DNA of 42,679 nt, taken from positions 1 to 42,679 of IMG/VR virus record IMGVR_UViG_3300032229_000159; one strand, 5' to 3'. A program made the position numbers and the translations under genes. The first letter of the stretch is position 1. Every line of letters starts with the position of its first letter. This stretch comes from a virus. This document shows positions 8,970 through 42,679 of this stretch, piece by piece. The notes under the pieces were generated by a model. The model saw only the letters and a list, made by a program, of their open reading frames with translations. It was not told the DNA's origin and searched no databases.

Positions 8970-9761
8970 ATGGCATACCAAAAACCAGACCCAACAATAG
9001 CACTTCAAGGTTTAGGTATTCAAGCGCAAGGACAACTTGCGATGTTGCAAAATCAAGCGGGTCTTCTTAAATCTTACGCATCTCAAGCTCCATTGATGCA
9101 GTCATTTGATGCTGCAAAGACTTCACAGCAGGCAGCAGAGTTTGGAATGGATAATTTGCAACGCTCAAAGGAGTTTGATCGTTTGCTTAATCCAGAAATT
9201 GCCAAGATGCGCGATGAGCTTGGTTCCAAGGTTGCCGAGGCAACTAACTTGGGTGCAACAAAAACTTGGATGGACAATTGGGCAGTCAAAAAAGGATTGA
9301 TGAACCAATCTGGACTTGGAACTGATAGCTTAATTGGAAGGTCTGCCGTTTACGACCAAGCAACAGAAGCTGGAAGGCAGGCAAGGTTACAGAACCTTGC
9401 GATTCAACAGGGTTATCTGGCTCAAACTCCCGCACCAATTGGTGGTCTTGATCCAGCGTCTATTATTGCTGCGGAACAAGCTGCAAAAGCTCAGAACCTT
9501 GTCGCAATGCAGCAGTATCAAGGAAATGTTATGCAGGGAGCGCAACAACTTAATCAATCGACAACAGATTGGATTAATTCAAACCTTGGACAACTTCAAA
9601 AAATCAATCAGAATCAGCAGCAAAGTCAGCAAAATTACGAGCAAATGTTGCTTCAAAATGCTCAACAAAATGCCGCAAGCGGCAACGCTCAAAAGGGACA
9701 AATGATTCAAACTGGAGGTGCTGTTGCTGGTGCTGTTTTGGGTGCTGCTATTATTATTTAA
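8970..9761 (+). CDS. Ejection/internal virion-type protein A2, paralogue of A1
   Basis: 263 residues. Aligns by eye with the preceding protein over most of its length: EFGMDNLQRSKEF against ELGMANVQRSREM, WMDNWAVKKGLMNQ against YMNEWARNQGLIQG, and APIGGLDPASIIAAEQA against APVGGIDPSTSISAQEA. The last 20 residues are a Gly/Ala/Ile hydrophobic segment (TGGAVAGAVLGAAIII), a probable membrane-active helix at the very C-terminus. The final A of its stop codon TAA is the first base of the next gene's ATG (9761). Likely a virion protein ejected with or ahead of DNA; inferred from composition and paralogy. Confidence 0.6.
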   Translation: MAYQKPDPTIALQGLGIQAQGQLAMLQNQAGLLKSYASQAPLMQSFDAAKTSQQAAEFGMDNLQRSKEFDRLLNPEIAKMRDELGSKVAEATNLGATKTWMDNWAVKKGLMNQSGLGTDSLIGRSAVYDQATEAGRQARLQNLAIQQGYLAQTPAPIGGLDPASIIAAEQAAKAQNLVAMQQYQGNVMQGAQQLNQSTTDWINSNLGQLQKINQNQQQSQQNYEQMLLQNAQQNAASGNAQKGQMIQTGGAVAGAVLGAAIII

Positions 9762-10597
9762 TGAAACAGCTAATAGATACAACAATACATAAAATCAAAG
9801 AATGGAACAAAAGATGGCCGAGAGCAGTAGTTTTATGGAGTGGAGGTAAAGACTCCACGGCACTGCTGCATTTGATCAAGTTTGGAGCAGGAATTGATCT
9901 TCCCGTCATACAGTATCGTGAACCAAAATTCCGTGAACGATACGCTTATTCAGATCGATTAATCAAAGAATGGAAGTTGGAAGTTTACGATTACGCTCCA
10001 AGCAAAATAGCTATTGCAGATGGGCCTGATGTTGAAACTGGAGAACTGCGATTTGACTTCATTAAATATTATCAATGGGGTCAAGGAACGGCAGTGTGCT
10101 TGTCTCTTGGGACTGAACGACCAAAGGAAAACGAGGACTTCTTGTGCGGTGTTACTGATGTCTTGCAGCGTCCTACGGGCACATTTAACTGGCCTTGGGG
10201 AGCAGTGTATATCGGAACTAAATATAGCGATACAGATTTGATTAAAGGTCATGTTCCGCTTGCGGTTGATATTCGATACGCTGAAAACTCTCCGATGTCT
10301 CTGTATCCAATGCGAGACTGGACTGATGATGATATTTTTCAGTATCTGGAAGACAACGGAGTTCAGCCAGACCCGACAAGGTATGTGAAAGATTACCACA
10401 AATGGAAAAACAATCCCGACAAGTCACTTAATGCAGACTTCTATCCTATTTGTTTCAACTGCATCAATCGGCACGAAGGAAAGTATGTTGATTGTCCTAA
10501 ATTAAAAGCTAAAATATCAAACATTTCTCACCTTGCGCCATACGAAGATTTGGTGAATGAAGACCTTGGATTCCGACCTGTGACATGGAACAAATAA
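9761..10597 (+). CDS. PAPS reductase-family PP-loop enzyme
   Basis: 278 residues. The PP-loop SGGKDS at residues 27-32 after strand VVLW, and the following helix TALLHLIK, identify the adenine-nucleotide alpha-hydrolase/PAPS reductase fold, which binds ATP or PAPS. W-x-W-G, PMRDWTDDDIFQYL (typical of the sulfurtransferase-like branch) and a C-terminal Cys set C231-x2-C234 with H238 and a later Cys (VDC, about residue 245) follow. The Cys pattern suggests a metal or Fe-S site rather than the ECGLH thiol motif of assimilatory reductases, so the substrate is uncertain; nucleic acid thiolation is one option. The gene sits among virion genes between two paralogue pairs and overlaps the next gene by 13 bases. 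Confidence 0.8.
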   Translation: MKQLIDTTIHKIKEWNKRWPRAVVLWSGGKDSTALLHLIKFGAGIDLPVIQYREPKFRERYAYSDRLIKEWKLEVYDYAPSKIAIADGPDVETGELRFDFIKYYQWGQGTAVCLSLGTERPKENEDFLCGVTDVLQRPTGTFNWPWGAVYIGTKYSDTDLIKGHVPLAVDIRYAENSPMSLYPMRDWTDDDIFQYLEDNGVQPDPTRYVKDYHKWKNNPDKSLNADFYPICFNCINRHEGKYVDCPKLKAKISNISHLAPYEDLVNEDLGFRPVTWNK

Positions 10598-13661: not shown

Positions 13662-16600
13662 ATGGCAAGCATTCTTGACGAAATCAAGGCAGAAGTCGAA
13701 GCGGAACTATCTCAACAACCTCAAGAAGAAAAACCAGTAAGCGTTCTTGAAGATGTTAAGCAGGAGGTTTCGGCAGAACCACAACAAGCTCCAGTTGAAG
13801 AACCGCAAGGTGATTTTTTTGAGTCTGCCGAAAGGTGGTTAGAACCTGCTCCAACGCAAAAATCCAGCGGAGATATTTTCCTTGGACTTATTTCCAATAA
13901 ACGCGCAAACGAGCTTGACGATGAAGAAAAAGGTTTGTTCAACGCATTAAGCGACGAGGAGCAATACAAGGTAGCTCAAGCTCGCAAAGACATTCCGCTG
14001 GATGACGCTCAAGCGAGGCGCATTTTTGAGGTTGAAAAGTCAAAGATGCCATCAGTTCCGACATCTTGGGAAGATTGGTATAATCTTGGTGGTGATGCTT
14101 GGGATGTTGTTAAGAATGTTTCCAAGATTCCAATTAAAGTTGGACTTGGTGCAGCGGAATTTGGTCGAGATGTTGTTAAAGCAACGGATATGACTGTTAG
14201 TGACGAAGAGGCTGCTAACAACATCAAAAAAGCACAAGGTTCATTTTACTCGTTCATGGCTCCAGCAATGGAACTTCCAGAAGATGTTCTTTGGGCGGCA
14301 ACAAAAGCAAAAGAAGGCGGATTAGGATGGGCGGATGCTGCTGGAGAAAAACTTGGTTTGGTTACTCCAGAAGACCGATTTGAGCGTTGGAAAACAAGAA
14401 GGTTGGTAACTCAAGCTCAAGCAGAATATTTCCGCGAACATCCAACAATTTACGGCAGGTTGCTTGATAGTCCTCTTGCAAAAGATGCTCTTGCTGGAAT
14501 TGCAAAATGGGAGATGGAATCTCCAGAGGAATTGGCAAAGCGAACGAACATTTCTGTTGAAGAAGCAAAAGCTCAACAAGACGCGATGGCGCGTGAGCAA
14601 ATTGACAATTTGACTTCTCAAATGGAATCAGAATTGCCAGAAGAAAAAGCTCGCGTAAGAATTGTTGGCGAGTTTTTGCTTCCCGGAGAGGTTGGCATGG
14701 GAACAATGGGGGCTGTTAGCATCGCAGCAAAAAGCGCAAGAAACATCGCGCAAGGATTGAAATACATTGGCAAATCCGCTGATGAAATTAATGAAATCAA
14801 CAAGGCAGCACAAGCATTACGAAAATCTCAATTTGCAGAAATGCTTAAAAAACGCACAGAGCGAGCAGAAGCGGTTGCTCAAGGTGCAGGCAAGATTGAA
14901 AAAGCGATTGAGGGATGGAAACCTGCCGCAGAAAAAGTAAATAAAGTTCTTGGTAACATTACCGCTCCTGTTCTTGGTGGTGTTGCTGGCTATAGCGTTT
15001 CCGAAGAATCGCCAATGACTGGTATTTTGAGTGGAGTTCTTGGTGGGGTTGCCGCAAGAGGCGTATTGAAGGGAACGAAGGTTGGTCTTGAAATTCCAAC
15101 ATTTGTTCGTGAGGTTGCAGAAGCTCGCAAGGTTGCACCTCTTGGCAAGACATTTGAGACACTCGGCAAATCCGCTGAAGGATCGGCATTGAAGGCTAAA
15201 ATTCTTTCCCGTGGAGGAAAGACGATTGATAATATTCTTTCAAACTCTGTTGAGTATGCGAAGTCTGGAATCCACGGAACTACGCTTGCTCTTGCTACTG
15301 GAGCATTAGAGTCCGCTGATCCAGAGGAGATGAAGCAGATGCTTGCTGATGGTCTTGCAATCACTCTTGGTGGACGCGCATTGCAGCATATCAAGGGCAA
15401 GATGATGGGCAATGACCCTATCATTGAACAACGCGAGCGTATTTCAGACGATTCTCGCATCCATCGCAGGTATCAAGAAGCTGATCCAGAAACCCAAGCA
15501 AACTTGGATCAAATTTCTGACTTTGATAATGCTATTTCTGCAAGAGAAACAAAGCTGAACGAAAGCGAATCTGACCTTGCGAACTTGATGGCATCTTACA
15601 AGGGTTCAGCGGAAGATGCCAAAAAAATTAAACTTGCTCAATCGGAAGTAGAAAAAAACAAGATTGCACTTGATCAAGTTAAACGCGCCAATGTGCAAAC
15701 GCGCAATGAATTTGGCAGGGAGTTTTTGAAGACATACGCAAACCTTCAAGACATCACCAATGGTGTTATGAAGAGTGGTCAGAACAATGTTGGGTTCAAT
15801 GTTCTTTCAACTGATCAAATCTATCAAAAGTTGCGTAATGATCCAGCGAACAGCAATGTTCCAGACGCTGACCTTGTTCAAATGGCAAGCCAAGCTGGAT
15901 TTTACTCAAATCCCGCACAACAAGGGCTTGCATTTGACCGCAGAAAACCATCCATTGTTATCAATGCAGACTCCATTCGTGAGCGCATCAAGTTGTTTGG
16001 TGAATCACCAACCGAAGCATTGGTTCACGAAACATCGCACTTCATGGATGTTGTGCCAGAGTTCCAAGAAGCACTTGCTCCAGTGCGTTCGATGCTTTTC
16101 CAAAACGAAATCCGCGATGCCGCTGGAAACATCAAGGCGACAACTTCTGGTATTTTCTCAAAGGCAAAACTCGTTGAACTTTTCAACGATGGATACCTTC
16201 GCCATTTAGACCCGCAAGGAAGAGAAGCATTTTCCAAGCTGAACAAACTTTGGGATGAATCCCGTGGTCAGTTGGATGAAAACAAGGTTGCCAACTACAT
16301 GAAGAGTGAAGTCATGGCAGACTTGCTTGGCGAAGTATCCAGCAGGCATCTTGCAAATGATTTGGATTCCGCAACGCTTGCCATGTGGGATCGCGCAAGG
16401 ATCAAAGCAAAGAAAAACTTGCTGGATCGTGCAATCAATCGTTTTTACGGACTTGGAGGACGAGGTGACATTGTTACTGCTGCCAATACACGCGCAGAAT
16501 TCCCCCCAGAAGCGATGGCGGCAGCAAGAGATGCAATGCGCCAGATCGTTTCTTTAAATGGCGAAATTTCGCCTCCAGCGCAAGAAGCTGATATGCCTGC

Positions 16601-19600
16601 TATCAGCAAGGCGCAGATGATGAAAAACTCTGCGCTGATCGAGCGTTTCGGAAAAGATTCTCCGCTATTCAAAACAGAATTTAAAGTCAAGGTATTCGAC
16701 AAGGACGGCAATCAGATTGGCGAGTCAATGCCAGTGACAACGCCAAATCCACGGGAAGGAACATTCCAAAGCACAGATGTTGGAATGAAGAAACTTTCTG
16801 GATATGGCGACATTCCAGCGGAAGCGCAAGGACTGCAAGTTCCCGAAGGTGGAACTCTTGTTGTCTCGCGTGATTTGGTCATGCAGCCAGATGGGGTAAC
16901 TCCTGTCATGTATGAGCCAAAGGACGCAAAGAAAATTGATGCAGACCGCAAAAAGCTGATTACAGAGGCACTCGATACAGACGATTACGGAACACCTAAT
17001 CGTTTTGAGCCTGTTGAAGAAGGATCGGAAACATACCGAGGCACATTCACTCCGCTTCAGATTCAAGCTATCAAGGATATGCCAGAAAGTCTTGTTCCAA
17101 AAACTCTCAAGGAGCATATGCTTAAAATTAACGATGCCATCGTTCGTGGAGATGGAACAAGGTTCATCGTGGATTATGCAGCGGTAATGAATGACAAGGG
17201 CAAGTATCAAGCATTCTCGCCAAAGATGTATGACCTTGTGCCAATCGGAATGCACTTGTCGAGCAAAGGAAATTTCCTTGTAACTACAATTTCCGTTGGA
17301 CGCATATTTGATAAAATGCGCTTGTGGAATGAGCGTATGCCGGGTCGCTTGCGTTTCTGGGATAATAACCTTGAGCGCACATTTGATGATTTTGTTAAGT
17401 ATCTTAAAAACTGGGAAGCTGGAAAACCCGGCAAAACAGACCTTGATGCTGATCCGAAAATAGCAGAAGCAAAAGCAGTAATTTTCAACGATCTTCTTAA
17501 TCTTTACGACAAGGCAACGGAATACACTAATCTCGAAAGGACAAAAATTCCTCGTCGCAAAGGTGATCCTCGCGGCAAAGACCCTAACCGCACGATCATG
17601 TCAATTCGCGTTGACCACATTGCTGAATTGATTCCAAACGAGAACGCAACAAAACTTCCAGTCAATTACGGATTTGCTAAAATCAACTTCATGCCAGAGC
17701 GCATGGAAGGTGAAGTTCCAGCGCAGGAAATACGACAAATTGATGAAAATATAAGATTTGCAAATCCTGCATTGGAAAAAGACGCAGTTGAAGCATTAAG
17801 TTCAAACAAACGTCAGTATTTTGGAGCGCATCGAGATTTAGACGATGGTTATCCTGTTGGAATAAGAATTGATATTCCTGCATTTACATCAAAAGGAGTA
17901 TATGTAGTAACTGTCCACGAAAAGAAAAAAGGTGGAGAAAGAGGACAAGTTGGAGAAAGAATCGGATATGACACAATTGCAAAAGTAGATAATCCTGTTT
18001 TCTTCTCTAATGAAGTTGGTGCTAAAAAAATAAAATCTGGAGAAGCCAATAAATTCCCAGTTGCAACAGTTGAAGGTCAATTTAACTCTTCAAGAGAAAT
18101 TCCAGAAGACATCAATGAATGGACACCTGTTGGATATAATCCACGGGAGCATTCTTACTTCTACGACAAACGCAACGATGAACCAGTGCTATCTGGAGAT
18201 GAAGCAATATCTGTTGGCAATACTGTTTTTGTTAAAAATCCTGTGTATGGAGACAAGGCTAATTTTGCATTCATGCCAGAGCGTCCAGCAGAGCAAGAAC
18301 CTACTATCGGAGAAAAAACTGAAATTTCTCCAAAGATAGGTGGTGAAGTTGAAACACAAAGCATAGAAAATATTCAAAAATTGCTTGCTGAAGCAAATGC
18401 AAGAAAGAAGTCAGCTTTGGATGCCTTTAATACAAAGGCAAACGAAGAATCGTTTGACTCTCCAGAAGCAACAAAACTTTATGAAGAGTATGACGCAATA
18501 AGAAAAGAAGTCCGCGATTTAGAATTCCAAGTTAGAAATCCCGGAGCAAAAAAGTTAAGTTTAGATGAAAGAGACAGATATTTAAGCGATCTTGAATCAC
18601 TAAATGAAGGTATTCCAACGCAAATAGAGCAAGGATTGTTTGGCCCAAGGGATACAGGCAGACGATGGAAAAAAGGAAAAAAGATTGCTGATTCAGATGC
18701 TCTTGGTGACAAATTTGAAGCTGAACTTACTGGTGGCGTTTTGTTTCGTGGAGTAACAAAAGAAGATTGGGAAAGAATCCAAAACCAAGGATACATTGAT
18801 ACAGATGGGCGCGGTGTAATTTCTCCAGAAGAAGAAATCAATCTCGCTACGAGCGTAGTAACGGCAGAAACATATATTCCGCACGGAAAACAAGGCGTTG
18901 TTCTTGCAATAGACCCAGCGGGACTTGATCTATTTATGATTGGCGCAGATGACTATTTAAGGGCATCTGGGCGCATTCCAATTGATAATGTTGTGAAAGT
19001 TTCTGGGCCTATCGGAAAAGATAGCGAAACAGGAACTCCATTTATACCATCTGAAACTTTTACCGAGATGAAACCTACTATCTCGGAAAAACAGCAAAGT
19101 TCTCAGATGATAGGTGCTGACACAATTAAACCCATTGATCTTCAAACAAGTGCAAAACCAGAAGCTGACGCAGTAATCAAGCCATTCTCGAACGCTTTAG
19201 TGTCATCCGCTGGACTCATCAACTTCCTTCCTGCTTATCACGGCACTCCATTTGATGTGGACAAGTTCAAGTTGGCAAATATCGGAACTGGTGAAGGAGC
19301 GCAGGCGTATGGATGGGGGCTTTACTTTGCACAGGCAAGAAAAGTTGGAGAGCAATATCGAGATGAGTTGTCTGGATATGATGAATTAACAATTTTTACT
19401 GATAAAGGTAAAAAGAAAGGTCAACAATTGGACGACCTTGACTTGGAAGCTGCTAAATATCTTGAATCTGGCGCAAGAGCAGCAGGACAATTTAAACACA
19501 ATACTGTTTACTACGCAAAACAAGCCGCTGAACGAAATGGCAAACAAGATGTTGTTGCACGAATTGATGAATATGGAAGAGATGCAAAAGTAACTTACGA

Positions 19601-21986
19601 AAAAAATCTTGGCAACCTCTACAAAGTCGATCTTGATGTAAAAGACGAAGACTTGCTGGATTGGGACAAGCCATTGAGTGAGCAACCAGAAAGCGTTCGT
19701 GATGCAATTACTGCACTTATCAAAGAGCGCACTCCAAAAGAAATTGCTGATGCACAGTTGAATAAATTAAAAACAAAAGGTGGATCGCTCTACGCTTTGA
19801 TTTCAGATAGCTTTGGAGAAAGCGCACAAGGAACTCCAGAGAAGCGAGCATCTGAAGCGTTGCTTGCGGCAGGAATTCCCGGCATACGCTACCTTGATGG
19901 AACATCGCGCAAGCAAGGCGAAGGCACTTACAATTATGTCGTATTCGACGAGAATCTTATCACAATTCTTGACAAGAACGATAAACCTGTTGCTGGTGAG
20001 TTGCCGACGAAGCAACCATTGAGTGGAATTCAGTTTATGCCGCAGCGTCCATCTGGAGAAATCCCGAACGCAAAAGAAATTCTTAAAAAACCTCTCGAAA
20101 ATCTTCCGTTGCGAGATGCAAGCACTTGGACTGAAATACAAAAAGCACCAGTTATTACTCTTAAAGACCTTATTGGCAAAAAAGTATTCCCAACATTTGC
20201 TGACATAACATCTGCTGGTAGAGTGTTTAAAGGGATTGATTCAAGTGAACTTTTAATACCAATTGAAACTCATGGTGGGCCAGAGTGGCCTTTAATCCAA
20301 GCAGAAAAAGTTGGAGAAGAAACCAATGTTTGGTCAAATCAAGGTGCTGGCGTAACAACAACAAAAGCAAAACGAGCGGATGAAGGAGCGATAATGCTTG
20401 TGACGCTTATGGACAAAAATGCCCATATGTCAAATACTGAAGTTGCAAATGCAATTATTGGAACAAATTTGGCATATGTAAGAGATAAAAGAATTTCTGC
20501 AAAAAATTTAAAACTTTTAAATAAAAAAATTAAATCAGAAGAAGTATTTGATGACTTTGTAGGAATTGATTCTCCTGATATTAATGATTATGTTTCAAAA
20601 CTTCCATTCCAAGGAGATAAAAGCAGGGCAAGACTTTCTACAATTCTTTCATCAAAAGAGGCAGAAGAACTTGGGGCGGCAAATGTTCAACGCATCCTTG
20701 ATGAGATGCGTAGCCCAGAATTTGAAGGCAGCAGAATTGGAGATTCTGTAATTGCTCTGCAATTGTCAAAAGGCGCACCAGTTGTCAAATTATCGGATTC
20801 TGGCGGAATGACTCATCCTTCATATCAATATGCAGTTAGAGGAAAAGTAATTGGTAGATTTGCTCGTCCTATAAATGCTGAAATGATTTATGATGATTTT
20901 ATTGCACAAAGGAGAGCAGAAGGTAAACCGCAAAAGGGAGATCGAAGGGCAATTGACCTTGCAAAACCAGTTCAAGTTATAACAGAAGAAATTGCAAATC
21001 GCATACCGCAAACTCCATACAAATATTTAAGATCAGCGCAACACGCTAAATTGTTAAAATATGCTATTGAAAATCAATGGAAAGATTCAACTGTTGCAAA
21101 AAACAATGGAGGAATTTCTCCAGCAGAATTCATTGATACTTTAAATTCAAGCGAAGCAAAAGTTGCTCTTAATGAATATACTTTGGATTCCATAAAGAAA
21201 GAAATCAAAGATGGTAAACTAAAATTGTATCAACTTGGCGACTCTAAAGTGTTTTTTGGAACAAAGAATACTGACCCTGCAAGCGATTATGGATTAGACC
21301 CAAAAAACTATGGGTTTGGCGAAAATGAAAAAACGCTAACCTTGGTATTGAATGCAGAGCGTGGAACCGCTGGAATGGGAGATGCCATTATGATGAAAGC
21401 GTTGTCAGAAGGCGTAACTGCTCTTGATTGTTTTGCGATTAAAAACACAAGATACCCTGATGGTATGTTGCCATCATTATACAAGCGATTCGGGTTTGAG
21501 GTTGTTGGAGAAATCCCATTTGACCCGCAATATTACACTCCTCAAAAATTGGCAGATATAAAATTGTTTTGGAAAAATAATGGTTGGGACGAATCTACTG
21601 GACTTCCTTCTGTTGTTATGATGAAGTGGAAAGGAAATGAAAATGACCGAACAAAAACCTTACGAGATATTGCTGGAAAAAATCCGACAAGTTTTCGGGA
21701 ACGAATTGAAGACCCTGTCAGAGACGCAGAAGGATATTCTGAACGGACTGATATTGGACAGGGTAGAAGCCCACAAGGGAGATTACAGCAAGGTGACTCT
21801 GGACGAACTGGAGGGAGTCAGGGAGATGCTCTACAAGGAATTCAGCTTGGCCGAGGCACAATAAATGCAGTCCAAGAATTGTTTGGAATGAATGATGCTG
21901 AACTCAAAAATTTGGGGATTAATCCTTCTCAAATTCAAACAATCAAAGAAGTCATAGGATACACTGCTGAGGAAAAGAAAGACTAA
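13662..21986 (+). CDS. 2774-residue polyvalent protein: zinc peptidase motif, ART-like domains, GNAT-like end
   Basis: The ATG at 13662 is one base after the previous stop; an in-frame TTG at 13647 is less likely. Order: acidic N-terminus (1-100); helical region with Gly-rich hydrophobic stretches near 430-470 that could enter a membrane; HETSH at 789-793 with E883 and D887 as a possible third ligand (zincin-like peptidase); an unrecognised region about 1010-1340; a module starting HRDL at 1390 and ending FVKNPVYGD near 1530; a compact ART-like domain about 1694-1785 (LFRG start, later T-x4-A-x-Y and GRIP); a classic phage polyvalent ADP-ribosyltransferase domain about 1858-2105 (AYHGTP, GWGLYFA, LLDWDKPLSEQ, GIRYLDG, GTYNYVVFD); another unknown module about 2130-2450; a GNAT-like end about 2550-2655 (LPSLYKRFGFEVVG). 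A motif x-F-[ML]-P recurs at 1343, 1537, 1855 and 2125 between modules. Such proteins are thought to be carried in the virion and injected to modify host targets. Confidence 0.85.
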   Translation: MASILDEIKAEVEAELSQQPQEEKPVSVLEDVKQEVSAEPQQAPVEEPQGDFFESAERWLEPAPTQKSSGDIFLGLISNKRANELDDEEKGLFNALSDEEQYKVAQARKDIPLDDAQARRIFEVEKSKMPSVPTSWEDWYNLGGDAWDVVKNVSKIPIKVGLGAAEFGRDVVKATDMTVSDEEAANNIKKAQGSFYSFMAPAMELPEDVLWAATKAKEGGLGWADAAGEKLGLVTPEDRFERWKTRRLVTQAQAEYFREHPTIYGRLLDSPLAKDALAGIAKWEMESPEELAKRTNISVEEAKAQQDAMAREQIDNLTSQMESELPEEKARVRIVGEFLLPGEVGMGTMGAVSIAAKSARNIAQGLKYIGKSADEINEINKAAQALRKSQFAEMLKKRTERAEAVAQGAGKIEKAIEGWKPAAEKVNKVLGNITAPVLGGVAGYSVSEESPMTGILSGVLGGVAARGVLKGTKVGLEIPTFVREVAEARKVAPLGKTFETLGKSAEGSALKAKILSRGGKTIDNILSNSVEYAKSGIHGTTLALATGALESADPEEMKQMLADGLAITLGGRALQHIKGKMMGNDPIIEQRERISDDSRIHRRYQEADPETQANLDQISDFDNAISARETKLNESESDLANLMASYKGSAEDAKKIKLAQSEVEKNKIALDQVKRANVQTRNEFGREFLKTYANLQDITNGVMKSGQNNVGFNVLSTDQIYQKLRNDPANSNVPDADLVQMASQAGFYSNPAQQGLAFDRRKPSIVINADSIRERIKLFGESPTEALVHETSHFMDVVPEFQEALAPVRSMLFQNEIRDAAGNIKATTSGIFSKAKLVELFNDGYLRHLDPQGREAFSKLNKLWDESRGQLDENKVANYMKSEVMADLLGEVSSRHLANDLDSATLAMWDRARIKAKKNLLDRAINRFYGLGGRGDIVTAANTRAEFPPEAMAAARDAMRQIVSLNGEISPPAQEADMPAISKAQMMKNSALIERFGKDSPLFKTEFKVKVFDKDGNQIGESMPVTTPNPREGTFQSTDVGMKKLSGYGDIPAEAQGLQVPEGGTLVVSRDLVMQPDGVTPVMYEPKDAKKIDADRKKLITEALDTDDYGTPNRFEPVEEGSETYRGTFTPLQIQAIKDMPESLVPKTLKEHMLKINDAIVRGDGTRFIVDYAAVMNDKGKYQAFSPKMYDLVPIGMHLSSKGNFLVTTISVGRIFDKMRLWNERMPGRLRFWDNNLERTFDDFVKYLKNWEAGKPGKTDLDADPKIAEAKAVIFNDLLNLYDKATEYTNLERTKIPRRKGDPRGKDPNRTIMSIRVDHIAELIPNENATKLPVNYGFAKINFMPERMEGEVPAQEIRQIDENIRFANPALEKDAVEALSSNKRQYFGAHRDLDDGYPVGIRIDIPAFTSKGVYVVTVHEKKKGGERGQVGERIGYDTIAKVDNPVFFSNEVGAKKIKSGEANKFPVATVEGQFNSSREIPEDINEWTPVGYNPREHSYFYDKRNDEPVLSGDEAISVGNTVFVKNPVYGDKANFAFMPERPAEQEPTIGEKTEISPKIGGEVETQSIENIQKLLAEANARKKSALDAFNTKANEESFDSPEATKLYEEYDAIRKEVRDLEFQVRNPGAKKLSLDERDRYLSDLESLNEGIPTQIEQGLFGPRDTGRRWKKGKKIADSDALGDKFEAELTGGVLFRGVTKEDWERIQNQGYIDTDGRGVISPEEEINLATSVVTAETYIPHGKQGVVLAIDPAGLDLFMIGADDYLRASGRIPIDNVVKVSGPIGKDSETGTPFIPSETFTEMKPTISEKQQSSQMIGADTIKPIDLQTSAKPEADAVIKPFSNALVSSAGLINFLPAYHGTPFDVDKFKLANIGTGEGAQAYGWGLYFAQARKVGEQYRDELSGYDELTIFTDKGKKKGQQLDDLDLEAAKYLESGARAAGQFKHNTVYYAKQAAERNGKQDVVARIDEYGRDAKVTYEKNLGNLYKVDLDVKDEDLLDWDKPLSEQPESVRDAITALIKERTPKEIADAQLNKLKTKGGSLYALISDSFGESAQGTPEKRASEALLAAGIPGIRYLDGTSRKQGEGTYNYVVFDENLITILDKNDKPVAGELPTKQPLSGIQFMPQRPSGEIPNAKEILKKPLENLPLRDASTWTEIQKAPVITLKDLIGKKVFPTFADITSAGRVFKGIDSSELLIPIETHGGPEWPLIQAEKVGEETNVWSNQGAGVTTTKAKRADEGAIMLVTLMDKNAHMSNTEVANAIIGTNLAYVRDKRISAKNLKLLNKKIKSEEVFDDFVGIDSPDINDYVSKLPFQGDKSRARLSTILSSKEAEELGAANVQRILDEMRSPEFEGSRIGDSVIALQLSKGAPVVKLSDSGGMTHPSYQYAVRGKVIGRFARPINAEMIYDDFIAQRRAEGKPQKGDRRAIDLAKPVQVITEEIANRIPQTPYKYLRSAQHAKLLKYAIENQWKDSTVAKNNGGISPAEFIDTLNSSEAKVALNEYTLDSIKKEIKDGKLKLYQLGDSKVFFGTKNTDPASDYGLDPKNYGFGENEKTLTLVLNAERGTAGMGDAIMMKALSEGVTALDCFAIKNTRYPDGMLPSLYKRFGFEVVGEIPFDPQYYTPQKLADIKLFWKNNGWDESTGLPSVVMMKWKGNENDRTKTLRDIAGKNPTSFRERIEDPVRDAEGYSERTDIGQGRSPQGRLQQGDSGRTGGSQGDALQGIQLGRGTINAVQELFGMNDAELKNLGINPSQIQTIKEVIGYTAEEKKD
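21643..21864 (+). CDS. Small helical protein nested in the 3' end of the polyvalent gene
   Basis: 73 residues in the +1 frame relative to the giant gene, entirely inside it. The start ATG at 21643 has AAGGA seven bases upstream; an ATG at 21637 is also in frame. The sequence (MTEQKPYEILLEKIRQVFGN, then TLSETQKDILNGLILDRVEA, VTLDELEGVREMLYKEF) has balanced hydrophobic spacing and reads as a real helical protein. The giant protein's own frame over the same bases is Arg/Gly/Gln-rich low complexity. Function unknown. This is either a true overlapping gene or an older separate gene over which the polyvalent frame extended. Confidence 0.6.
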   Translation: MTEQKPYEILLEKIRQVFGNELKTLSETQKDILNGLILDRVEAHKGDYSKVTLDELEGVREMLYKEFSLAEAQ

Positions 21987-28522: not shown

Positions 28523-29431
28523 ATGAAAAAGCACTTAGATTTGTTTTCTGGCATTGGTGGATTTGCATTAGGGTTAGATCGCGTTTGTGAATTTCAACAC
28601 ACATTTGTTGAATATGAGCCGCATCTAAAAAGGGTGCTGAATAAAAATTTTCCGTCATCGAAAGTTTATGGAGACATAACAGAATTTACACCTGACTTTC
28701 AGCCTTGGGTAATAACTGGTGGATTTCCATGTCAGGACATATCCAGAGCAAATACAAACAAAAACAAAGGAGGAATAAATGGAAACAGAAGCGGATTATG
28801 GAAACACTACCTTAGAATTATTCGGGAATCTTCACCTAAATACGTCATCATCGAAAATGTGTATGATCTCTTGTCAAACGGGCTTGGAATCGTTGTGCAA
28901 GACTTGGCCGAAAGCGGGTATGATTCGACTTGGACGATCATCGACTCTAAATTCTGCGGAGTTCCACAAAGAAGACGTAGAGTTTACATACTGGGATTCC
29001 GTGATGGAATCACCAGAGGAACCGATCCACTCAACAATACAAAGCGTTCTTCTTACGAATTACGATCCAAAGTTAAAGATATCGAAAAAATCAGCAATTG
29101 GTATTTTGAGGAGAGCATGGGAACGGAACATCCCATTGCCTACTTTACTCGCCAACGCTCTGATGAATATGCTGAGTGCGGATTGTCTGGAACTATTGCA
29201 AAAAGAGATTACAAAAGTTTCACAGACATTGTGTTGCACGGAGATGGAAAGTTGCGACGAGTTGGGGTTGTGGAAAGATTAAGGTTACAAGGAATTCCAG
29301 ATAATTGGTTGGATGACTGCAATCTTTCAGAAGTTCAAAAATATCAAGCAAATGGAATGACAGTTCCAGCAGTTTCTTGGGTGGCAAAACAACTTATTTC
29401 TTATGATGAAAGACTGGACATTCAAAAATAA
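28523..29431 (+). CDS. Cytosine-5 DNA methyltransferase
   Basis: 302 residues from ATG 28523, two bases after the previous stop; a TTG at 28514 is less likely. Motif I LDLFSGIGGF (5-14) binds SAM, motif IV PCQ with catalytic C70, motif VI ENV (111-113), motif VIII QRRRR (149-153), motif X with QANGM-x-VP (275 on). The target-recognition part (about 165-240) contains FTRQRSDEYAECG. It would put 5-methylcytosine in phage DNA, probably to evade host restriction. No cognate restriction enzyme is seen. The gene is AT-rich compared with the helicase gene downstream and fully contains a second gene in another frame (28779-29282). Confidence 0.92.
   Translation: MKKHLDLFSGIGGFALGLDRVCEFQHTFVEYEPHLKRVLNKNFPSSKVYGDITEFTPDFQPWVITGGFPCQDISRANTNKNKGGINGNRSGLWKHYLRIIRESSPKYVIIENVYDLLSNGLGIVVQDLAESGYDSTWTIIDSKFCGVPQRRRRVYILGFRDGITRGTDPLNNTKRSSYELRSKVKDIEKISNWYFEESMGTEHPIAYFTRQRSDEYAECGLSGTIAKRDYKSFTDIVLHGDGKLRRVGVVERLRLQGIPDNWLDDCNLSEVQKYQANGMTVPAVSWVAKQLISYDERLDIQK
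28768..28773 (+). promoter_or_regulatory. Strong Shine-Dalgarno inside the methyltransferase gene
   Basis: AAAGGAGG precedes the ATG at 28779, with AATAA between. Most starts in this window have no such site, so it is a notable signal for the nested gene. The same bases code Lys-Gly-Gly of a conserved methyltransferase loop, so some of the match may be coincidence. Confidence 0.55.
28779..29282 (+). CDS. Phage protein nested in the methyltransferase gene (GILRRAxxR family)
   Basis: 167 residues in the +1 frame within the methyltransferase gene. KTWPKAGMIRLG (41-52) and then ESPEEP, a short Ser/Leu helix, YDPKLKISKKSAIGILRRAW (95-114) and ERNIPLPTLLANAL match the layout of a small phage protein often found beside cytosine methyltransferases (usually SGM-x2-G, then LSAKACAGILRRAEKRGK and LP-x2-L-x2-AL). 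An AAAGGAGG site precedes the ATG. Both frames thus look conserved, a true double-coding stretch of 504 bases. Function unknown, perhaps helping the methyltransferase. Confidence 0.65.
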   Translation: METEADYGNTTLELFGNLHLNTSSSKMCMISCQTGLESLCKTWPKAGMIRLGRSSTLNSAEFHKEDVEFTYWDSVMESPEEPIHSTIQSVLLTNYDPKLKISKKSAIGILRRAWERNIPLPTLLANALMNMLSADCLELLQKEITKVSQTLCCTEMESCDELGLWKD

Positions 29432-30050
29432 TTGGATAGCAGAAAACTTTGACAACCATGTGCGTGAGCAGTTGCCTTGGTATGATTTAGCGACAAGTGC
29501 TGTGGTTTCCATAACAAGGAACTATCTTTCCAATAATGGAATAATCTACGATATTGGAGCAAGCACTGGAAACATAGGAAGGTCTGCTAAATCTTTGATA
29601 GAACAAAGAAACGCAAATCTAATATCTATAGAGGAAAGCGAAGAAATGGCACAAAAGTATAATGGTGGAGGAACGCTTGAAATTTCAGATGCCGTGGATT
29701 TTGAATATCAAGAATTTTCCGTGGCAGTTTGCTTTCTTTCTTTAATGTTTATGTCAAAAAAAAGAAGGTCAAAACTTCTGCAAAAATTAATGGCATCCAC
29801 AGAATATGGAGGATGTATTATTTTAGTAGAAAAATTTGAATCAGTTCACGGATACGCATCAACAATATTCCGAAGAATGACATCAGAATGGAAATTGAAA
29901 TGCGGAGCATCTCCATCTGATATTTTGGATAAAGAACTTTCATTAAGCGGAGTTCAGCGTCCACTTGATCAATCCGAGGTTGATGGAGGAATTGAATTCT
30001 TCCGAATCGGAGAATTCGCAGGATACATAATTGAAAAACACAATACATGA
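29403..30050 (+). CDS. SAM-dependent methyltransferase (CmoA-like class I)
   Basis: 215 residues. Motif I IIYDIGASTGNIGRS (about 47-61), an acidic end of strand two (LISIEESEEMA), SDAVDF, and a long substrate region with SSXF-type fragments make a class I Rossmann methyltransferase, closest in layout to CmoA/UbiE-like phage enzymes. Substrate unknown (tRNA, small molecule or DNA precursor). It overlaps the cytosine methyltransferase by 29 bases and the helicase by four. Very AT-rich: 17 G/C in the 60 bases 29701-29760. Confidence 0.7.
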   Translation: MMKDWTFKNNWIAENFDNHVREQLPWYDLATSAVVSITRNYLSNNGIIYDIGASTGNIGRSAKSLIEQRNANLISIEESEEMAQKYNGGGTLEISDAVDFEYQEFSVAVCFLSLMFMSKKRRSKLLQKLMASTEYGGCIILVEKFESVHGYASTIFRRMTSEWKLKCGASPSDILDKELSLSGVQRPLDQSEVDGGIEFFRIGEFAGYIIEKHNT

Positions 30051-34840: not shown

Positions 34841-35956
34841 ATGAGATTCCACATATTAGGATTACCGCACACAGTTACCAGCAAGGAGTTTAACGCCTGC
34901 GCTTACACGCAAAAGGTCGTGAAGTTCGGAAAAGCTATGACAGAGCGAGGCCATGAAGTGATCCACTACGGACATGAAGATTCCGACCTTATCTGCACGG
35001 AACACGTCTCTGTGCTGACCAACGATGACTTCAAGAAGTCCTACGGGACGCATGACTGGCGCAAGACGTTCTTCAAGTTCGACATGAATGACCATGCGTA
35101 TCGGTCATTCTTCGCCAATGCCATCCGTGAAGTAGGCAAGCGCAAGCGCAAGCATGACTTTATCCTGCCGTTCTGGGGTTCTGGTGTCCGTCCAGTATGT
35201 GACGCTCATCCAGACCTTATCTGCGTTGAACCGGGCATTGGCTACGCAGGGGGTCACTGGGCGCGTTGGAAGGTATGGGAGAGCTATGCCATCTATCACG
35301 CTTATTGTGGCCTACAGAGCGTTGGATCGTGCCGACAAGACTGGTATGATGTCGTCATCCCGAATTACTTTGATGTCGATGATTTCGACTTCAATAGCGC
35401 GAAGGAGGATTACTTCCTCTACCTTGGCAGGGTCTACTCTGGTAAGGGGGTGGATGTCGCTATACAGGCAACAGAACGCGCAGGAGTCAAACTGGTCATC
35501 GCTGGGCAGAAGGAAGAAGGATACAAGCTGCCTTCGCACGTCGAGTATGTAGGCTACGCAGACGTTCCTACGCGCAAGAAGCTCATGGCAGGCGCAAGAG
35601 CATCCTTTCTGCCATCGATGTATGTTGAGCCATTCGGTGGTGTCCAGATCGAGAACCTGCTGTCTGGCACTCCAACCATCACCACTGACTGGGGTAGCTT
35701 CGCGGAAAACAACCTGCATGGTATCACTGGCTATCGCTGCCGCACGATGGGTGACTTCGTAGATGCGGTCGAAAATATCGACTGCATCAACCCGTATGAC
35801 TGCCGCAAGTTTGGCGAGAACTTTACCTTGGAGCGGGTCGCACCAATGTATGAAAAGTATTTCAGCGATGTTCTGGATGTCTACGAAGGCAAAGGATGGT
35901 ATGCAGACGGCAACGGCATCGATGCCATGACGAGGTTCTATCCAAGCATTATATGA
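34841..35956 (+). CDS. GT4-family glycosyltransferase
   Basis: 371 residues, GT-B fold. The C-terminal half has YFLYLGRVYSGKGVDVAIQA, LVIAGQKEEGY and FLPSMYVEPFGG with QIENLLSGTP, the nucleotide-sugar site of GT4 enzymes (E near residue 264 in EPFGG). The N-terminal half carries the acceptor domain. In a phage it may glycosylate phage DNA, virion proteins or host surface; which is unknown. Much more G/C-rich than its surroundings (31 of 60 bases at 35041-35100). The next gene, a methyltransferase, overlaps by four bases. Confidence 0.85.
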   Translation: MRFHILGLPHTVTSKEFNACAYTQKVVKFGKAMTERGHEVIHYGHEDSDLICTEHVSVLTNDDFKKSYGTHDWRKTFFKFDMNDHAYRSFFANAIREVGKRKRKHDFILPFWGSGVRPVCDAHPDLICVEPGIGYAGGHWARWKVWESYAIYHAYCGLQSVGSCRQDWYDVVIPNYFDVDDFDFNSAKEDYFLYLGRVYSGKGVDVAIQATERAGVKLVIAGQKEEGYKLPSHVEYVGYADVPTRKKLMAGARASFLPSMYVEPFGGVQIENLLSGTPTITTDWGSFAENNLHGITGYRCRTMGDFVDAVENIDCINPYDCRKFGENFTLERVAPMYEKYFSDVLDVYEGKGWYADGNGIDAMTRFYPSII

Positions 35957-39506: not shown

Positions 39507-39750
39507 ATTTAACCTGCCAGAGCAGGAGCATGATTTTAAATACGCCTGTGCTGGATTGGATGCGTTGTTGACATTGAACGACATTGATCAGGAACTTCGT
39601 TCTGCCGTGCGATACCACACTGGCGAATTCACGCATTACATTAACGAGGAAACTGGCGAGCGTAAAGAATGCTGCGTTGAGACATTGTATCATGTCCGTA
39701 AAGTCATAAACGAAATGGTTCACGAACGAAAATTGCCAGAACTAATTTGA
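39484..39750 (+). CDS. Small phage protein (MxAxLEFNLPE family)
   Basis: 88 residues from ATG 39484 with SD GGGAGG upstream. MEAKATLEFNLPEQEHDFKY is the start of a widespread phage protein (KATLEFNLPEE ... LR-x-LRY), followed by LRSAVRYHTGEFTHYI and a final helix (HVRKVINEMVHERKL). Function unknown. Directly before the large terminase, with a four-base overlap (TTGA). Confidence 0.65.
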   Translation: MEAKATLEFNLPEQEHDFKYACAGLDALLTLNDIDQELRSAVRYHTGEFTHYINEETGERKECCVETLYHVRKVINEMVHERKLPELI

Positions 39751-41615
39751 CAGCAGATGTTAAAAACGCAATTGCCTTGGCAGAAAAAATTCGTGCCGAG
39801 GTTGATAACGCGACTGATGAAGATCGCGGGATATTGCTTGCCGCAAAGTATATTATAACAAATGTTTCAAATACAACTGGTAATTTTAAAGTAGACTTGC
39901 CGTTTGCAAAGAGTGTTGTATTGCAGTTTGTCAACGAACTGCTTAATAAAGATCAGTTTGAGGCGGCAGCAACGATCTTGTGGGGTCAGCAGGTTTATGA
40001 CTGGCGACCACAATCTTCGATGGATACTTGGAGATGCTTATTTGATCACGATAAGTTACTTATACAAGGTGCTGGCGCGATGGGGAAAACCTTTGGTGCA
40101 GCGGCATGGTTTCTGTTGGACTGGATGCGTGATCCGCACTACACTTGTATTAAAGTTGTTTCACTTACTGCTGAACACGCTCAACGAAATGTATTTGCTG
40201 CTATTAAAAAGTTTTATACGACTGCATTGGTAAGACCAGAATTTGATGGCAGCGAGACGCTTGTAAAAAGCATACAGGCAAATAATGACTCAAAAAACGG
40301 AATTCATCTTGTAGCTATTCCGAAAGGTGATAGCGGAACTGGAACTCTCCGTGGTTTCCACCCAAGTCCGAGAGCAGGCAAGCCGCATCCGACATGGGGT
40401 CAGATGTCAAGAACTCATGTTGTGTTGGACGAAGCGGAAGAAGTTCCCGCTGGCGTGTGGGAGGGTCTGCAAAACATCTTGTCCGCAGCGGATACCGAAG
40501 GCGCAAAGGGACGCATTAAAATTTTTGCTGCATCCAATCCAAAGGATAGGACAAGCGAGTTTGGCAAGCGGTGCGAACCAGAGCGAGGTTGGGGATCGGT
40601 GGATTGCGAGGATGACTTTGAATGGGAGTCACGCGATGGTTGGCACGTATTGCGCCTTGATGCCGCACGATGCGAAAACGTCATTGAGCAGAAAATTGTT
40701 TTTCCCGGCTTGCAGACTAACGAAGGCTACACGGCATACGAAGCCAAGGGGAGGACTGCGGAATATTTTACCATGGCTCGTGGTTGGTTCCCGCAGGAAG
40801 GTATCAGCATGGCGATTATAACTCCGTCGATGCTTGATAACGCGATGGGTAACGTGCGGTTTATTGGGCCTGTAGTGCCTCTGGCAGCGTTTGACTTGGC
40901 ACTGGAAGGAAACGATAGCGTTGTGTGTTCTTTCGGAAGATTTGGACTTTGTGATGGGTGGACACCGATGAGTGGTCAGTTTATTCCGTTCAAGACTCCG
41001 AGAACAGTATTGCAACTTGATTCGCAGATGACATTTCCGAAGGCGGCAACGCTGGAGCAAACTTACAACATTATTAAGTTTTGTAAGAACATGAAAATTG
41101 CTCCGAACTGGTTGTGTGTTGATCGAACTGGCAATGGTGCTGGCATCCATGACTCGCTAAAAACCTTGTTTGGCGATGAAGTTCTTGGCGTGAACTATTC
41201 TTGGGCGGCAACGGACACGCATATCCTTGGCGATGATTCACAGAAGGCGAGCGAGCTTTACAACGGGGTTGTTACTGAATTATTGTTTGGTCTGTCCAAG
41301 TATCTTGAGTTTGAGTATCTCAAAATATCACCGGGATTTCGCAACGATCAGCTTGTGCGGCAAGCTACTGGAAGGCGTTATATGCAAAAGGGAAAAGGCA
41401 TGGTTCGCGTGGAAAGTAAAAAAGATTATGTTAAGCGGACACGGCAACCATCACCAGATGCTTTGGACTCGCTTTCAATGCTGGTATTTCTTATGAGACA
41501 ACGCGCAGGATCAACTGCAACTATGGTAGAAAACAAAAAAGAAGTTCCTCGCTTAATGGATCGTGAAATGTTCTCTATCGTGGATAAGATACAATTTATC
41601 GATTTTAGCGAATAA
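39747..41615 (+). CDS. terL: Terminase large subunit
   Basis: 622 residues. ATPase: GAGAMGKT (108-115) as Walker A, HVVLDEAE (Walker B 225-231), FAASNP (coupling motif). Nuclease domain: D383 in AAFDLALEGND, D459 in CVDRTGNG, D571/D574 in PDALDSL as the metal triad. It cuts and pumps DNA into the head. The only reasonable start is TTG 39747, since no ATG occurs near the N-terminus; its TTGA overlap with the preceding stop supports it. Followed by a 164-base gap with palindromes. Confidence 0.92.
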   Translation: MTADVKNAIALAEKIRAEVDNATDEDRGILLAAKYIITNVSNTTGNFKVDLPFAKSVVLQFVNELLNKDQFEAAATILWGQQVYDWRPQSSMDTWRCLFDHDKLLIQGAGAMGKTFGAAAWFLLDWMRDPHYTCIKVVSLTAEHAQRNVFAAIKKFYTTALVRPEFDGSETLVKSIQANNDSKNGIHLVAIPKGDSGTGTLRGFHPSPRAGKPHPTWGQMSRTHVVLDEAEEVPAGVWEGLQNILSAADTEGAKGRIKIFAASNPKDRTSEFGKRCEPERGWGSVDCEDDFEWESRDGWHVLRLDAARCENVIEQKIVFPGLQTNEGYTAYEAKGRTAEYFTMARGWFPQEGISMAIITPSMLDNAMGNVRFIGPVVPLAAFDLALEGNDSVVCSFGRFGLCDGWTPMSGQFIPFKTPRTVLQLDSQMTFPKAATLEQTYNIIKFCKNMKIAPNWLCVDRTGNGAGIHDSLKTLFGDEVLGVNYSWAATDTHILGDDSQKASELYNGVVTELLFGLSKYLEFEYLKISPGFRNDQLVRQATGRRYMQKGKGMVRVESKKDYVKRTRQPSPDALDSLSMLVFLMRQRAGSTATMVENKKEVPRLMDREMFSIVDKIQFIDFSE

Positions 41616-41643
41616 ATGACTTATATCTGATTTAGAGTATAAC

Positions 41644-41734
41644 TTGATACATTTTATCAAATCAGACTTGATTTATTTATCAAATATGATGCACTAACCC
41701 ATAAATACTTGCTTTATTTATCATAAATGATAAA
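41644..41734 (+). promoter_or_regulatory. Cluster of operator-like inverted repeats
   Basis: Three dyads in the 164-base gap after terL: TTGATA-N5-TATCAA (41644-41660), TTGAT-N6-ATCAA (41668-41683) and TTTATCAT-AA-ATGATAAA (41717-41734). All share the half-site TTGATA/TATCA. They look like binding sites for a dimeric regulator or host factor. Confidence 0.6.
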
Positions 41735-41740
41735 TTATGC

Positions 41741-41769
41741 TTGCACAATTTAACGCTTTAGAATATTAG
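41741..41769 (+). promoter_or_regulatory. Candidate promoter for late/structural genes
   Basis: TTGCAC (41741-41746), 17 bases, TATTAG (41764-41769). The start point would lie a few bases before the ATG at 41780. Directly downstream of the dyad cluster. It would drive the Cys-rich gene, portal and the head genes beyond the window. Confidence 0.4.
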
Positions 41770-41779
41770 GATCGAACTC

Positions 41780-42361
41780 ATGGCAAAAGTAATTATCGGT
41801 ATGGTTCCGCCCGGAGGGTGGCATTACTACGACTCTGACGCTAAATTGACATCGCATTCTTACGAGGGATTGTTAAAAGCAGTTGAGAATTATCGCGCCG
41901 AAAATCATCTGTCAGTTGGAGACGTTGAGGGAGATGTAAATAGCTACATTTGTTCCAACTGGCCTAATTTTTGTCATGGAGTTGACATGGTTGTTGTGAC
42001 TTCAATCCATCCAGAAACAAGTCAGCAAACTTTGCTGAATGATATTACGATTTGGGCTAAAAATCTTCTGAACTCCAAGACTGCTAACAACCTTGTTTCG
42101 GATGATCTTGCCGAGCAACGAGCCAAGACTTGCAAGAGTTGTCAATACAATAAAAATTGGCGAGGAGGATGCGGATCGTGCGTTTCTGCAACAGAACGCA
42201 TTTCTGCTTCAATCCGCAATGGTCGAGATACAAGATCGTCAAGCAAATTAGGTGGATGCGAGTTGATGAGGCATGACAATCGCAGTGCAATTTTCTTTGA
42301 CAAATCAAAACTTTCTCAAGCAACTTCTCTTCCAGAACATTGTTGGATGACTATTAAATAA
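41780..42361 (+). CDS. Cys-rich protein between terminase and portal, unknown
   Basis: 193 residues. N-terminal domain MAKVIIGMVPPGGWHYYDSD, VENYRAENHLSVGDVEGDVN; then a Cys-rich C-terminal region (TCKSCQYNKNWRGGCGSC, about 113-130, LGGCELM, EHCW) that would bind one or two metals or an Fe-S centre. Not recognised. Location directly before the portal suggests a head-assembly or packaging accessory role. Confidence 0.6.
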   Translation: MAKVIIGMVPPGGWHYYDSDAKLTSHSYEGLLKAVENYRAENHLSVGDVEGDVNSYICSNWPNFCHGVDMVVVTSIHPETSQQTLLNDITIWAKNLLNSKTANNLVSDDLAEQRAKTCKSCQYNKNWRGGCGSCVSATERISASIRNGRDTRSSSKLGGCELMRHDNRSAIFFDKSKLSQATSLPEHCWMTIK

Positions 42362-42362
42362 T

Positions 42363-42679
42363 ATGGCAGATGTCCTTAAACCACTTCCCGCTATCGTAAC
42401 GGATACCTATGCGACAAAATCACCTCGCATTACGAACGCTTATGACAAGCCTCGCATTCTTGACTTGGATGTTATTGATCCTGCCGTTGGCAATAACGAT
42501 GTTGTCAATAAAGATACTTTGCAGGTTAAGCGGACATTCAAAGATGCGTCACAAGCGCACTCTGCGTATCGCAGGCTTAAACAGCAGAATGTCGAGAGGA
42601 ATAGGAAGAATCAACTGATTCAAAAGAAACTCAACAATGAACCTCCATACTCTGCGAAAAAACTGGAAAGCATGGGCCA
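42363..42679 (+). CDS. Probable portal protein (3' partial)
   Basis: 105 residues are visible before the window ends. MADVLKPLPAIVTDTYATKS, then SAYRRLKQQNVERNRKNQLI and KKLNNEPPYSAKKLESMG fit the N-terminus of short-tailed-phage portals, in which an R-x2-N-x2-I helix and a PPY-x3-KL-x3-G turn occur. Follows the large terminase as usual. Leader TATTAAATAAT-ATG. Confidence 0.55.
   Translation, partial: MADVLKPLPAIVTDTYATKSPRITNAYDKPRILDLDVIDPAVGNNDVVNKDTLQVKRTFKDASQAHSAYRRLKQQNVERNRKNQLIQKKLNNEPPYSAKKLESMG

Follow-up and report, generated by a model that had tools for sequence, protein, structure and literature searches.

The 2774-residue polyvalent protein encoded in this viral DNA carries a short joint motif, [I/L]-x-F-[M/L]-P, at the borders of its modules; modules are exchanged between relatives at these joints, and across unrelated phages the joint varies in step with the zincin-like peptidase of the same chain. 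A motif that changes together with a built-in protease suggests that the chain cuts itself at the joints into separate weapons, and on balance, judging from sequence, the protein is somewhat more probably than otherwise an effector polyprotein that its own zincin would cut at lineage-specific joints. The repeated joints and the module swapping between relatives are the most informative feature of the protein and were absent from the original prediction.

Genome setting and domains

The window, which is the whole stretch of DNA analysed, comprises the 42,679 bases of an IMG/VR virus record. As originally predicted, positions 13662-21986 (+) hold a real, uninterrupted reading frame of 2774 aa that runs from ATG with no internal stop. 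Upstream lie the end of a tail-spike gene at the left edge (1-772), a 700-aa protein with a weak match to an internal virion protein family, and a 580-aa protein; downstream lie RecT-like, replication, methyltransferase and helicase genes, and the large terminase at the right edge (39747-42679), just ~22-30% identical to terminases of isolates. Portal and major capsid genes are not seen in the window; the record is probably partial, since contigs of relatives reach 65 kb and more, and the absent stretch of the genome probably carries the head genes. INPHARED isolates show no DNA match to this lineage and INPHARED no match to the peptidase platform or the C-terminal module, and GTDB genomes searched with an N-terminal query contained no isolate or prophage of the lineage. 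Three further genes stand out: a glycosyltransferase at 34841-35956 with a very strong phrog_3408 match (E 2.5e-192) amid divergent genes, a phosphoadenosine phosphosulfate reductase-like gene at 9761-10597 within the virion gene block, and a tRNA methyltransferase at 29403-30050 (phrog_4752, E 2.2e-46) in a window where no tRNA gene was found.

The polyvalent protein may be injected at infection, given the position of its gene downstream of the internal-virion-protein-like gene and precedent. Membrane-type N-terminal segments had also been invoked for injection; this argument fails because no 19-residue window in the N-terminal part exceeds a mean hydropathy of 1.3. The features of the protein, all on the plus strand, are as follows.

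13662..21986 (+): polyvalent protein, 2774 aa; intact ORF with relatives
13662..15461 (+): N-terminal region, aa 1-600; retained by close relatives, ~29% identity across the wider family
15462..16661 (+): helical region and zincin-like metallopeptidase, aa 601-1000; invariant HExxH and E883, AF2 pLDDT 80.6
16026..16040 (+): HETSH, aa 789-793; conserved in relatives
16308..16310 (+): E883, candidate third zinc ligand; lies on a predicted helix and is invariant
16662..17681 (+): unnamed domain, aa 1001-1340, always after the peptidase; from relatives and AF2 model
17682..17702 (+): joint 1, INFMPER, aa 1341-1347; motif, disordered in the AF2 model
17823..18239 (+): 'HRDL' module, aa 1388-1526; weak match to Phage_L5_gp82 / phrog_586
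18264..18284 (+): joint 2, FAFMPER, aa 1535-1541; motif
18339..19061 (+): module of unknown fold, aa 1560-1800; relatives only in L003/L015
19218..19235 (+): joint 3, INFLPA (LINFLPA), aa 1853-1858; motif
19236..20006 (+): predicted ADP-ribosyltransferase (ART) domain, ART-PolyVal type, aa 1859-2115; profile match, family alignment
20028..20048 (+): joint 4, IQFMPQR (GIQFMPQ), aa 2123-2129; motif, disordered in the model
20133..21701 (+): C-terminal module, aa 2158-2680; other phages encode it on its own
21219..21641 (+): GNAT-fold part, about aa 2520-2660; AF2 model and PDB fold search

The zincin-like site proposed earlier holds in its main residues: the H, E and H of HETSH and E883 are invariant in 25 relatives at identities down to 21%, while D887, also named as part of the site, is present but not invariant. 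The AF2 model of residues 601-1350 (mean pLDDT 80.6) places short strands before the HExxH helix, followed by another helix bearing E883, an order that fits a zincin; a PDB search with Foldseek yielded no zincin and low-probability helical matches only, which counts against self-cleavage. Profile matches between this region and other phage zincins are confined to the HExxH core, Peptidase_M48 is matched weakly in four rows, and BFVD yields phage ART-PolyVal and large-polyvalent-domain proteins. Two long stretches had been left unnamed (about 1010-1340 and 2130-2450), and rightly; no Pfam family matches residues 1001-1345 or 2155-2510, both of which are conserved.

The phage ADP-ribosyltransferase domain seen earlier is borne out at residues 1859-2115. 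By its sequence it is a genuine ART with predicted activity: it matches ART-PolyVal (PF18760) at E 9.8e-7, contains the invariant core YHG..GTGEG.Q..G.GLYF, and aligns across ~250 residues with the ARTs of >150 phage loci. The match in the window (22.7-24.6 bits) is below the curated cut-off of 31.2, related ARTs score up to 84 bits, and a variable mid-domain insertion sets the domain apart from the Pfam family. A second, compact ART-like domain had been placed at about 1640-1800; it has no library match and only near-identical relatives, and is dropped as unsupported. The module said to start with HRDL is retained as a phage domain at 1388-1526 that begins with this motif, on a weak Phage_L5_gp82 / phrog_586 match; a kinase reading of 'HRDL' is rejected, the motif opening a phage domain common to CRP-9 gp54 and ctYwJ313. 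The acetyltransferase-like end is confirmed as a GNAT fold by the AF2 model of the C-terminal module (pLDDT 81), for which GNATs are the top PDB hits (probability 1.00, E 3e-3, TMt 0.57); acetyl-CoA binding or transfer is predicted at most. The chain thus joins the unrelated activities of a polyvalent effector (peptidase site, GNAT fold and one ART, not two as first thought), and it is found in a virus record with tail and internal virion protein matches upstream.

Joints and module exchange

From residue 1 to about 1350 close relatives are 78-94% identical; beyond that point they diverge abruptly. Downstream of the kept N-terminal 1345 residues modules are swapped among relatives (ART, ParB-like, GNAT and unknown); other members of the family insert a ParB-like domain, another ART, a GNAT or different terminal modules. 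The ParB-like module shows a weak match to a ParB-like PHROG and a GRHR-type motif in L004/L007; in these two it occupies about aa 1350-1610, right after joint 1, instead of the HRDL module, and in L004 it is followed by a short ART-like stretch (IYHGTT). Relatives are also encoded by prophages of cultured hosts: Marinobacter iranensis (L134), Hydrogenophaga aromaticivorans (L121) and Piscinibacter sakaiensis (L140).

The joint motif, with the consensus [IL]-[QNR]-F-[ML]-P-[AE], places repeated recognition-like sites at the module borders, as a self-processing polyprotein would require. Its F-[M/L]-P core occurs four times in the window protein (F1343, F1537, F1855 and F2125) against 0.53 in shuffles (P 0.002), and [I/L]-x-F-[M/L]-P 103 times in the 57,145 aa of 22 family proteins against 11.8 expected; the remaining proteins of the window contain one copy of the motif in a total of 8072 aa. 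Alignments between relatives end near a joint (-5 to +25 residues from it) in 68/157 cases, compared to 15.1 +/- 3.6 when positions are drawn at random (at most 26 in any of 1000 trials), and start at joints in 34/117, compared to 11.4 expected. Joints 1 and 4, the two that were modelled, are disordered in AF2 with ordered domains adjoining. After the 1001-1340 domain, members that are 27-50% alike mostly retain NFMP, NFLP, NYMP or NYLP, with one NFSP. Joints 1 and 2 have the DNA TTCATGCCAGAGCG in common. The codons and flanks of joints 3 and 4 are different, an argument that the protein sequence is under selection and that DNA homology alone is not the explanation. The module at 1560-1800 closes with TPFIPSE (aa 1794; 19035-19055), a near-match that may be a fifth, variant joint. 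The L296/L297 ORFs (4144 and 4271 aa) are larger members with five or six FMP joints, in which R-rich residues follow FMP (FMPRRE, FMPQRE, FMPSRR).

Co-variation of joint and peptidase

Polyvalent proteins of other phages display different motifs in the same place (LFQ, LNQ, FSI/NYSI, RFAV). In the ART-bearing loci, drawn from IMG/VR and GTDB genomes, tripeptides that begin 6 and 5 residues ahead of the ART are found elsewhere in their own chain at 2.0x expectation, and recurrence is near 1 at other positions and in other chains; in a hold-out of 29 further ORFs recurrence is seen at -5 (28 vs 12.9) and -4 (25 vs 14.5), with none at -6. The C-terminal module is preceded by an FMP or FLP joint in the window lineage, L330 and L338; in L336, which has a HETGH zincin, it is flanked by VMNQS before and VLNQS after, and where it is encoded standalone it has no joint.

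Q at -3 accompanies HExGH zincins (19/28 vs 18/72, P 1.5e-4); among disjoint ART-matched pairs with different zincins all nine pairs that differ in Q go in the expected direction, and a Q joint stands ahead of Q-type zincins in 28/33 cases vs 19 expected, as a loose pattern. The Q and HExGH classes were picked after the first set had been viewed, and for this reason a hold-out set and a class-free Mantel test were used. In the hold-out Q joints again go with HExGH zincins (14/15 vs 6/14, P 0.005), in class proportions that are not representative because the scan was seeded with several Q-type ARTs. The class-free partial Mantel correlation of joint with zincin given ART is 0.43 (0/2000 permutations); with the window family left out it is 0.35, and the hold-out gives 0.33 (21/2000 permutations; P 0.01). 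The correlation of joint with ART is only 0.11. The pre-ART heptamer at -8..-2 tracks peptidase similarity and not ART similarity across unrelated phages: with composition also controlled r is 0.35 (0/1000), compared to -0.03 to 0.03 for five upstream heptamers under the same control, and -0.13 and 0.09 for two heptamers inside the ART. A regex test of plain versus joint against zincin presence was not significant (P 0.08-0.10), partly because FSI joints were misfiled as plain. Many FSI-type proteins are without a standard HExxH, which counts against self-cleavage, and HExxE is found in two; FSI-jointed L066 has HETVE at aa 868 and L055 HEHVE at aa 744 in place of the HExxH of relatives, possibly an altered or dead metallopeptidase. 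The co-variation may also in part reflect phage lineage or another lineage-specific protease.

In the proposed mechanism the effector would be made as one chain and then cut into pieces. The N-terminal block and the 1001-1340 domain would form a fixed platform; the zincin (601-1000) would recognise the short, disordered, lineage-specific joint, here [IL]-[QNR]-F-[ML]-P-[AE], and cut at module borders, either in the virion or after entry. This would release the ART, the GNAT-type module and further modules, whose targets would be host proteins. As modules sit between equivalent joints, phages could exchange them without losing processing. For phage polyvalent effectors at large, the chances seem evenly balanced that they are polyproteins which cleave themselves at joints matched to the peptidase; the joint would be a coding rule by which any module flanked by the local joint is pluggable, and each lineage (FMP, hxQ, FSI, RFAV) would have its own code.

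Alternatively, the joints could be docking or threading signals, short strands for binding to virion proteins or for unfolding at ejection, with the zincin having some other role; the joints are indeed short, hydrophobic and regularly spaced, and such proteins are thought to traverse the tail, however the ART and C-terminal modules mostly lack a joint when encoded alone (among ARTs 1/29 standalone against 88/128 long ORFs have one, by a pattern defined after looking) and the joint changes with peptidase type, so that this explanation is considered unlikely. It is rather doubtful that the joints are cut by another protease, of the prohead or the host, while the zincin targets host proteins: prohead proteases process internal proteins of phages P1 and T4 (PMC9024508), and one could be encoded outside a window that is without head genes, yet in many unrelated phages the joint varies with the zincin embedded in the chain. 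Mere recombination scars, that is short shared DNA at exchange points, would account for the coincidence of swap points with joints and for the DNA common to joints 1 and 2, but are improbable given the other codons and flanks of joints 3 and 4, the survival of the motif at 27-50% identity and its change with peptidase type.

The joints supply exact predicted cut sites in many phages, where the 2017 suggestion of zincin processing came without sites, and a single expression construct is enough to make the idea testable. In giant phage proteins that no domain library resolves, the joints also show where modules meet, and they may expose new effector modules. If self-cleavage by the zincin is true, they would in addition yield site-specific proteases whose codes differ.

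Comparison with known systems

The protein belongs to a known kind, the polyvalent proteins of Iyer et al. 2017 (PMC5512222), with which it shares the giant chain, zincin-like peptidase, ART, GNAT and uncharacterised domains; what is new to this kind is the joint code. Processing of polyvalent proteins by zincins was already proposed in that work, which reports neither a repeated module joint (the word 'linker' occurs 0 times) nor any correspondence of joint with peptidase type. A further difference is that no Pfam family is matched by the peptidase-flanking domain and C-terminal module described here. The N4 virion RNAP contains a zincin and is nevertheless packaged uncut (PMC5512222), which counts against self-cleavage. 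The P1 antirestriction proteins DarB and DdrB, compared by description, are large phage head proteins (PMC9024508, PMC5512222); DdrB has a zincin and is reportedly processed before packaging, however no series of module joints is described for either. No description of the joint motif or of a peptidase-joint match was found in the literature searched, a search that most subscription journals and preprints fall outside.

Polymorphic toxin systems also combine a constant N-terminal platform with exchangeable downstream effector modules; the window protein differs in having several modules per chain and in being encoded by a phage. Self-processing polyproteins of RNA viruses would follow the same logic if an embedded protease has repeated cognate sites between functional units; this is a comparison of how the systems work, as the present case concerns a DNA phage and the zincin family, with no homology between them.
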